Below, piece by piece: positions 15,543-20,090 of a DNA stretch of 64,000 nucleotides; the first letter of the stretch is position 1; each line of letters starts with the position of its first letter. The notes under the pieces were generated by a model. It did not search any database. It saw only the letters and a program-made list of their open reading frames with translations, and was not told the origin of the DNA. Source of the DNA: Alphaproteobacteria bacterium (GTDB lineage Bacteria > Pseudomonadota > Alphaproteobacteria > UBA9219 > RGZA01). Made by a program: the position numbers and the translations under genes. The stretch covers positions 1-64,000 of the forward strand of contig JANRLI010000011.1 in NCBI GenBank assembly GCA_033762625.1, in the 5' to 3' direction.

Positions 15543-15649
15543 AAACACCATCGCATCTGACGCAAGCCTTACAATTTATAAACCGACGGTAATCGGGATT
15601 TTCGGAACACAAGTGTTTTTTTGTTCTACTAACTAAATAGGAGTTACTT

Positions 15650-17934: not shown

Positions 17935-18624
17935 CTAATCCGGCAGATAGGGCAGACCTTCCAGTTTGGCAATCGCCACTTTCTTTTTATCAAGGGGCTT
18001 GCCGTGCAAGTAATTGAATTCAAACTGGTTACGAAAGGTCTGCGCAATCAGCGGATTTTGTACCAATAGGACACGCAATGGCGGGCCCCAATTGATGATC
18101 GCAAAGCGATCGCCATAGACAAAATACGGCGCTTGCTGGAACAGATAGGATGGCACAGCGCGGTAGGTGGAAGGCCCGATGATGACCAGGTTATTACCTT
18201 CTGCAATCAGCAAACGGTTGGTGATGCCAAGTTTGCGTTGCTGAATAAGGGCGGCGGTCAGTTCTTTTTTATATTTCTTGAGCCAGACTTTTTCATCAAC
18301 GCCGCTGATTAAAACCTCGCCGCCCGTGCGGCCAAGTGTGGCAATAATATCTTCCCATAATTCGAAGATTGCGCCATCACCTTCGATATTTCTGAAATTG
18401 AATTTCTCGCGCCGCAAGCGCACGCCGGGTTCGGGCGTGAATTCAATACCTGCGCGTTCAAGTGCGCCGCATACTGCTTCAAAGACTTTGCCGCCCATTT
18501 TGCCCGTGCCCTGTTCAAGGTTGGATACGGCGGCCAGTGACACGGATGCGCGCTCCGCCAATTCGCGCTGGGTATAGGCCAAAAGGCTGCGGGCGGCTTT
18601 GAGTTGTTCAATAGTGATCATCAT
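17935..18624 (-). CDS. XRE-family regulator, module A
   Basis: A 229-residue protein. Residues 1-70 form an XRE-type helix-turn-helix (QLKAARSLLAYTQRELAERA, then VSLAAVSNLEQG). The C-terminal ~150 residues form an uncharacterised sensor-like domain, with ISGVDEKVWLKKYKKEL and YFVYGDRFAIINWGPPLRVL. Regulator B (18955-19641) is a full-length paralogue. It is divergent from small gene 18743-18958. An upstream 15-bp palindrome (18644-18658) is a likely operator. Start may be either of two adjacent Met codons (18624 or 18621). Confidence 0.88.
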   Translation of the reverse strand: MMITIEQLKAARSLLAYTQRELAERASVSLAAVSNLEQGTGKMGGKVFEAVCGALERAGIEFTPEPGVRLRREKFNFRNIEGDGAIFELWEDIIATLGRTGGEVLISGVDEKVWLKKYKKELTAALIQQRKLGITNRLLIAEGNNLVIIGPSTYRAVPSYLFQQAPYFVYGDRFAIINWGPPLRVLLVQNPLIAQTFRNQFEFNYLHGKPLDKKKVAIAKLEGLPYLPD

Positions 18625-18643
18625 TAAAATATACCGGTAAATC

Positions 18644-18658
18644 TAATGATTTTCATTA
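18644..18658. promoter_or_regulatory. Perfect palindrome, probable operator of module A
   Basis: TAATGATTTTCATTA, 7-bp arms around one base, 20 bp before the regulator A start in the divergent intergenic region. Size and place fit an autoregulatory XRE operator. Confidence 0.55.
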
Positions 18659-18742
18659 AATATTTGCCGTTCTCCACTCAGGAAAGTAAAGCCCGCCCCG
18701 CATAATAAAAACATCGAAAACATCGATTTAACGGGGTTTATT

Positions 18743-18958
18743 ATGCAAAACACATCAAAAATCACCAAATTATTATGTGGTCAGGCCGATGAAAGCGAAT
18801 ATAGCCAAGGCCTTCGTGAACTGATTATTACGTTGAATGCGGGTTGCGCATTAATCTTTAAAGCAACCGGAAGCGCATTAAAAGCAACCGGCGTTTTCCT
18901 ATGTGGTGAACCAGACCAAAACAGATATGGCCGTGATGGCAGCCGTTATGGTTCTTAA
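18743..18958 (+). CDS. Small protein of module A (71 aa)
   Basis: A 71-residue protein of unknown function. The middle is hydrophobic (LIITLNAGCALIFKATGSAL, about 28-47) and is followed by GEPDQN and a Gly/Arg/Tyr-rich tail. Small protein B (19733-20050) shares the pattern C-A-x-IF-x-A-x-G-x-AL-x-AT-x2-F-x2-GEPDQN. It is preceded by AACGGGGTTT and divergent from regulator A. Its stop overlaps the end of regulator B by 4 nt. Conservation of the tail in two copies argues that it is translated. Confidence 0.75.
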   Translation: MQNTSKITKLLCGQADESEYSQGLRELIITLNAGCALIFKATGSALKATGVFLCGEPDQNRYGRDGSRYGS

Positions 18959-19641
18959 ATTGGTTTGTTCGGCAAGCCTTCCAGCTTGGCGATGACGACA
19001 TCGCTTTTCTTGAGAATCCTGCTGTGCTGGAAATTAAACTCGAACTGGCTTCGGAAGCTCTCGGCGACCAGTGCATTATGCACCAGTAGAATGCGCAAGG
19101 GTGGCCCCCAATTAATCATCGCAAAGCGGTCGGCATACACATAATAGGGAACCTGCTGCAATAAATGCGGCGGCGCTACGCGGTAGGTTTCTGTGTCGGA
19201 CAAGATCAAGGTGTCGCCTTGCGGGATGATGTGACGATTGCGAATGCCAAGTTTGCGTCGTTCAATCAGCGCTGCGGTCACTTCCTCCTTATACCGTGCG
19301 AGCCATAATTTGCTGCTAACGCCGCTAATCAGCACTTCGCCGCCGGTTTTGCCCAAGGCAAGAATGATGTCATCCCATAATTCGATAACGGCGTGTTCGC
19401 CTTCCAGAACGCGAAACTGGTATTTCTCGCGCCGTAAGCGCACGCCGGGTTCGGGCGTGAATTCAATGCCCGCTTGCTGCAATACCTTGCAAACGGCATC
19501 AAACACTTTGCCGCCAATCTTGCCCACGCCTTGTTCAAGATTGGCGACCGAGGCTAGGGATACCCCTGCCTGCTTGGCGAGGTCGCGCTGGGTCCATTCC
19601 AGCAGGGTACGGGCGGCTTTAATCTGGCTGATAGTAATCAT
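18955..19641 (-). CDS. XRE-family regulator, module B
   Basis: A 228-residue paralogue of regulator A. It has the same XRE domain (QIKAARTLLEWTQRDLAKQA, SLASVANLEQG), the same linker (GIEFTPEPGVRLRREKYQF) and the same C-terminal domain (VYADRFAMINWGPPLRILL). The two copies are similar along their whole length, so they arose by duplication. It is divergent from small gene 19733. A partial inverted repeat CTAAT/ATTAG (19644-19666) lies next to its start. Confidence 0.88.
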   Translation of the reverse strand: MITISQIKAARTLLEWTQRDLAKQAGVSLASVANLEQGVGKIGGKVFDAVCKVLQQAGIEFTPEPGVRLRREKYQFRVLEGEHAVIELWDDIILALGKTGGEVLISGVSSKLWLARYKEEVTAALIERRKLGIRNRHIIPQGDTLILSDTETYRVAPPHLLQQVPYYVYADRFAMINWGPPLRILLVHNALVAESFRSQFEFNFQHSRILKKSDVVIAKLEGLPNKPI

Positions 19642-19732
19642 AGCTAATACTAAGCATCATAATTAGTAAAAAGCACTAAAAAAATCTCACTTCGCAGATG
19701 CGAAAGGAGCTGAAATTGGCTAAATTATAAGC

Positions 19733-20050
19733 ATGAACAAGCACGAATATGAGCGAATTTCGAAACCACAAACGAAGCTAGCGCGACGCAAAATGAACGA
19801 TAACAAGAAACCAGACCACCTCAAGTCGATGGAAGATGAAGTGAACGAGTTCCTTCAGGTTCTAGCAGGCTACCCTGTTGATTCACATAAGTTAACGCCG
19901 CTGCAAAAGCAGGTGGTGAAGTTGAATAACATCTGCGCAAATATCTTTCGGGCGGGTGGCACGGCGCTCAGCGCAACGAATAGTTTTATCTTCGGCGAGC
20001 CCGATCAGAACCAAGTAAGTCGCGGCGAAGCCAATCATTACGAGCCGTAA
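19733..20050 (+). CDS. Small protein of module B (105 aa)
   Basis: A 105-residue product, or 85 residues if ATG 19793 is used. The N-terminal part is charged. The C-terminal ~40 residues match small protein A: CANIFRAGGTALSAT, then FIFGEPDQN. The function is unknown. It is divergent from regulator B, as small protein A is from regulator A. The ribosome binding site is weak for either start, so the N-terminus is uncertain. Confidence 0.7.
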   Translation: MNKHEYERISKPQTKLARRKMNDNKKPDHLKSMEDEVNEFLQVLAGYPVDSHKLTPLQKQVVKLNNICANIFRAGGTALSATNSFIFGEPDQNQVSRGEANHYEP

Positions 20051-20090
20051 TCGATTTTTGTTCTAATTACTAAATTTTGGTTACTTTGTG

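Follow-up and report, generated by a model that had tools for sequence, protein, structure and literature searches.

Two adjacent units of regulator and small protein genes

In the window (the whole 64,000-nucleotide stretch of DNA analysed here), two units of the same layout lie side by side, each made of an XRE regulator gene on the minus strand and a divergent small gene on the plus strand (Table 1). An earlier sequence-only reading had proposed these four open reading frames, and we found all four, together with the GEPDQN tail that it had described on both of the small proteins. The 3' end of the small protein 1 gene shares 4 bp with that of regulator 2. As had been claimed, the two regulators align over their full length (227 residues, 65% identity, gap-free, E=5e-117). 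The similarity of the small proteins was also borne out, except that the alignment covers 61 residues and not the ∼40 that had been suggested (39% identity, E=5e-15).

Table 1. Positions of the genes and candidate operators of the two units in the window
Feature	Position	Strand	Description
Regulator 1	17935..18624	-	XRE (Cro/cI-type) HTH (HTH_3 above Pfam cut-off) and predicted PLD-like/TrmB-type C-terminal domain; 229 aa
Candidate operator, unit 1 (TCTAATGATTTTCATTAAA)	18642..18660		39 bp upstream of regulator 1 ATG; from window scan
Small protein 1	18743..18958	+	71 aa, GEPDQN tail
Regulator 2	18955..19641	-	XRE HTH and predicted PLD-like C-terminal domain; 228 aa
Candidate operator, unit 2 (ATTAGTAAAAAGCACTAAA)	19662..19680		39 bp upstream of regulator 2 ATG; kept in G002
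Small protein 2	19793..20050	+	85 aa, GEPDQN tail; start by indel pattern versus G002

We compared the genome of the window (G000) with two other genomes of the same genus, G001 and G002. G002 has one orthologous unit, likewise flanked by a SulP transporter gene and mutS, with a regulator 91% and a small protein 88% identical to those of the window. In G001, mutS directly follows SulP after a gap of ∼100 bp and the unit is absent. The site is therefore known in an empty state (G001), with one unit (G002) and with two units (G000), so that the regulator and the small gene are present or absent together there. Between G000 and G002, the regulator has a dN/dS of 0.046 and the small gene one of 0.08; purifying selection thus acts on both, and both are real coding genes. 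The same comparison revised the second small gene, whose existence was correctly recognized but whose proposed start at 19733 (105 aa) is less likely than 19793 (85 aa): single-base indels relative to G002 occur 5' of 19793 and none occur 3' of it inside the gene, and hence 19793 is most likely the start.

On the regulator tree, the unit 1 regulator is sister to the G000–G002 pair of unit 2 regulators (SH-aLRT 95), and dS between the two window regulators is 1.48, near saturation. The duplication of the unit is therefore not recent.

The regulator family and its divergent partners

Searches with regulator 2, a query that includes the HTH, gave matches at E≤1e-5 in 33 of 33 genomes of the window's order (its own genome included), with up to 30 matches per genome; elsewhere in the class, 5 of 63 genomes had such a match. 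For the wider surveys we used a profile of the C-terminal region alone, which detected the family in 23 of 385 genomes across the class and in 5 of 399 across the phylum. The family is a lineage-centred expansion that is rare elsewhere.

We fetched 60 stretches carrying 93 family members, 92 of which were long enough for the tree, and surveyed their neighbours. Divergent partners among the 92 include SBP_bac_3 solute-binding proteins (14 members), Vut_1 transporters (3) and, in one case each, a carbamoyltransferase, an SDR, a Band_7 protein, an M15 peptidase and an aminotransferase. A small protein of ∼60 aa, or a longer variant, that is unrelated to the GEPDQN proteins stands opposite 17 members; another 12 are the second regulators of the cassettes that contain these ∼60-aa proteins, and 43 have another or no clear partner. 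A GEPDQN partner is found for 3 of the 92. The expectation that a GEPDQN gene is always divergent from this regulator C-terminal domain thus failed. The GEPDQN-paired regulators form one clade, and their nearest relatives, L041–L043, which are the closest regulators outside the genus (56–62% identical), are opposite other genes. A third family member in the genome of the window, L003, has no divergent small gene at all: its next upstream gene is co-directional and 269 bp away, and an aminotransferase-like gene begins 14 bp downstream. Such homologues contradict an obligate pair of regulator and small protein, and the neighbour survey ruled it out.

Partner type, assigned by hand from the neighbour surveys, changed 17 times on the regulator tree compared to 44.8 times after shuffling, and none of the 200 shuffles gave so low a value. 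This clustering indicates that the pairing is inherited along clades and occasionally swapped. SBP_bac_3 and Vut_1 proteins are typical targets of local transport regulators. We take Vut_1 to be a family that includes the queuosine-precursor transporters (YhhQ family). Family regulators divergent from Vut_1/YhhQ-type transporters lie at L039:4173-5237, L049:5878-7379 and L045:1171-2673, and this arrangement suggests a protein regulator of queuosine-precursor uptake.

Within the taxonomic order of the window, we also observed a recurrent cassette at ten loci (L069, L070, L072, L075, L079, L083, L086, L092, L096 and L099), in which an enzyme gene adjoins a family regulator that is divergent from genes for a ∼60-aa protein, a ∼75–120-aa protein and a second XRE regulator. 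The 22 cassette enzyme genes that were scanned included LPG_synthase_C-like (8), Methyltransf_33 (3) and cyclodipeptide-synthase-like (2) genes, and the cassette has the appearance of a conserved unit with a small-molecule or signalling function. Arrays of family regulators, some apparently operonic, occur at L068:41-7088 (about ten) and L097:2045-13622 (five).

Domains and predicted fold of the regulators

Membership of the XRE class is supported by HTH_3, which scored above the Pfam gathering threshold in both window regulators and was matched at E≤0.1 by 34 of 35 family members. The C-terminal domain had been called unfamiliar, and it is: its ∼160 residues gave no convincing match in Pfam, NCBIfam or PHROGs, and none to solved structures by sequence.

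AlphaFold models of the regulators were built from a shallow alignment of five sequences (the window proteins and related loci). The best, that of regulator 2, had a mean pLDDT of 79 and a pTM of 0.60, while the other four had pLDDT values of 51–60; the fold of regulator 1 is taken from the regulator 2 model. In this moderate-confidence model the HTH is followed by an alternating beta-alpha domain, for which the top PDB fold matches were TrmBL2 (E=1.4e-6), the PLD-family nuclease NUC, NucT and the TrmB sugar-binding domain (E=3.5e-4), all within E ∼1e-6 to 1e-3 and with query-normalised TM-scores of ∼0.4. These fold matches are not accompanied by a sequence match: at the level of sequence, the family could not be linked to TrmB or PLD proteins, and one member matches PLDc_2 at E=0.047. 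The window proteins lack the HKD motif (HxKxxxxD), which occurs in 1 of the 92 members, L043, where its position is not tied to a catalytic site. The winged HTH of PF01978 (TrmB family) was not matched, and XRE-type HTH models alone match the window proteins. From the model, we predict that the C-terminal domain is a degenerate, catalytically dead PLD-like domain that would bind an effector, and the window regulators look like XRE repressors joined to a TrmB-type effector domain.

A candidate operator upstream of the regulator genes

The regulator start is preceded, at exactly 39 bp, by a palindrome of the form TTTAGTG-N5-CACTAAA, with some variation, in both window units, in the G002 unit, and in L042 and L043, that is, in 5 of the 6 closest members, and the last two of these have different divergent genes. 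The sixth, L041, has a similar sequence at about the same place. Upstream palindromes with a score of ≥12 were seen three times, all in this six-member clade, compared to 0.06 expected in shuffled upstream regions. A general palindrome search of all 92 upstream regions, on the other hand, gave little above the shuffles, and we therefore restrict the operator claim to the six-member clade, in which the likeness could partly come from shared ancestry. The unit 2 site has 2 mismatches to the clade palindrome in the window scan; the motif becomes loose when 3 are allowed, with 6 sites in the window versus 2.3 expected. Similar sites away from the regulator promoters were seen at 15619-15637 (TTTTGTTCTACTAACTAAA) and at 20056-20074 (TTTTGTTCTAATTACTAAA), the latter just past small gene 2. 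Its position at −39 makes the palindrome a suitable candidate for autoregulation, and the divergent promoter would be within reach.

The GEPDQN proteins

Small-protein searches found five GEPDQN-type proteins, all in the genus of the window: two in the window, one at the same site in G002, and a further copy in each of G001 and G002, beside cytochrome bc1 genes. The contig of this second G002 copy carries no family regulator. The contig of the G001 copy has 256 bp of sequence ahead of the small gene, too little to prove that a regulator is absent there. Queried with the cytochrome c1 protein of G002, the assembly of the window (rated 100% complete) gave no match in a search without a positive control; a gap or a loss could account for this.

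Conserved across the copies are N, C, F, G and L residues in a long helix and the GE-x-[DN]-QN tail. A low-confidence structure model has two helices and a floppy or disordered GEPDQN tail, and the small proteins have no Pfam match and no recognised HTH. The hydrophobic segment that had been noted is present in a weak form: the Kyte–Doolittle maximum over 19 residues is 1.42 in unit 1 and 0.81 in unit 2, below the usual ∼1.6, and neither protein is predicted to have a clear membrane helix. The ∼60-aa small proteins opposite other family members showed no homology to those with the GEPDQN tail (hhalign probability 0.4%), and GEPDQN-like candidates from the wider order (E 0.02–0.5) were unconvincing in the five inspected. 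The probable role of the GEPDQN protein is that of an effector or accessory factor, small, soluble and helical, rather than a membrane toxin.

A probable local repressor and its target gene

The sequence-only reading held that the regulator and the small protein function together, as in a toxin–antitoxin, phage-defence or signalling pair. The repeated layout and the gain or loss of the unit as a block support such a connection at this site, but not a general obligate pair. The family is found opposite different genes at different sites, and a duplicated local regulator with its target is therefore most likely, rather than a toxin–antitoxin or defence pair. We consider it reasonably probable that each unit is an autoregulated, local one-component repressor with a divergent target gene. 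In this reading, the XRE repressor, probably a dimer, would bind the TTTAGTG-N5-CACTAAA-like palindrome in the intergenic region, 39 bp before its own start, and would repress both itself and the divergent small gene. The predicted dead PLD-like fold at its C-terminus may bind a small effector, as archaeal TrmB does, and the effector would release the regulator and lift the repression.

A closer partnership, a two-part switch in which the small protein would bind the regulator as its co-effector, appears unlikely. The regulator and the small gene have been kept together in both units, both are missing from the G001 site, and the tail is conserved across the copies. However, regulators of the same clade are paired with other neighbours, and the tail is also kept in the G002 copy that has no family regulator nearby.

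We regard a toxin–antitoxin pair, with the XRE protein as antitoxin and repressor and the GEPDQN protein as toxin, as improbable. The small gene does adjoin an XRE gene, the pair was gained or lost jointly at one site, and the regulator HTH resembles, below the cut-off, those of HipB/Y4mF-type antitoxins. The genes, however, are divergent rather than co-transcribed, a GEPDQN partner is missing from the regulators that come nearest outside the genus, and the G002 small-gene paralogue has no family regulator on its contig. The small proteins matched no toxin family and are weakly hydrophobic, and no antitoxin match went beyond the generic XRE domain. Moreover, fourteen XRE/DUF397 pairs of Streptomyces that had been proposed as toxin–antitoxin systems did not act as such (PMC10364602). 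The phage-defence proposal also found no support: no defence-specific domain was detected, and the PADLOC matches cover the HTH of the regulators alone and none of the small proteins. A mobile-element or prophage remnant or cargo, with a repressor opposite a cro-like small gene, is very improbable despite the presence/absence polymorphism at the SulP–mutS junction, since no viral-contig relative of the small protein or regulator 1 was found, the PHROG matches are confined to the generic HTH, the small proteins have no recognised HTH, and no integrase or terminal repeat was noted at this junction.

Beyond the local repressor and target that we favour, we put forward, tentatively and with some doubt, that the family is a new class of one-component sensors, each with an XRE domain and a dead PLD-like domain. 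With ∼30 copies per genome in one alphaproteobacterial order, it might constitute a modular toolkit that swaps partners (transport proteins, small orphan proteins and amino-acid-type enzymes), the GEPDQN protein being a genus-specific effector.

Comparison with known regulators and significance

The palindromes that TrmB binds in archaea lie at transporter promoters, and members of its family are reported or proposed to regulate themselves (PMC4158304). TrmB and TrmBL proteins would resemble the window regulators in having an effector domain of matching predicted fold after the DNA-binding domain; palindromic operators (candidates here), local control of transport genes and autoregulation (which we infer here) are further likenesses (PMC4158304). 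They differ in that the former are archaeal and have a winged HTH, whereas the latter are alphaproteobacterial with an XRE/Cro HTH and share no detectable sequence similarity with them. A radiation of XRE paralogues is described in Caulobacter and its phage phiCbK (PMC10688885). The likeness lies in paralogue expansion in an alphaproteobacterial lineage, and that radiation includes a phage, whereas a viral-contig search found no phage members of the present family. In Streptomyces, many XRE regulators stand beside a small, functionally uncharacterised DUF397 protein, and these pairs were formerly proposed as toxin–antitoxin systems (PMC10364602). The DUF397 gene is downstream of the XRE gene, while the GEPDQN gene is divergent, restricted to one genus and without a Pfam match.

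A small gene beside an XRE gene is thus not always a sign of a toxin–antitoxin system. The neighbouring genes offer clues to the ligands; for members opposite SBP_bac_3 proteins, amino-acid-like solutes are suggested. Should the predicted C-terminal fold prove correct, it would mean that XRE repressors gained an effector domain of the TrmB type and multiplied strongly within a single bacterial order.
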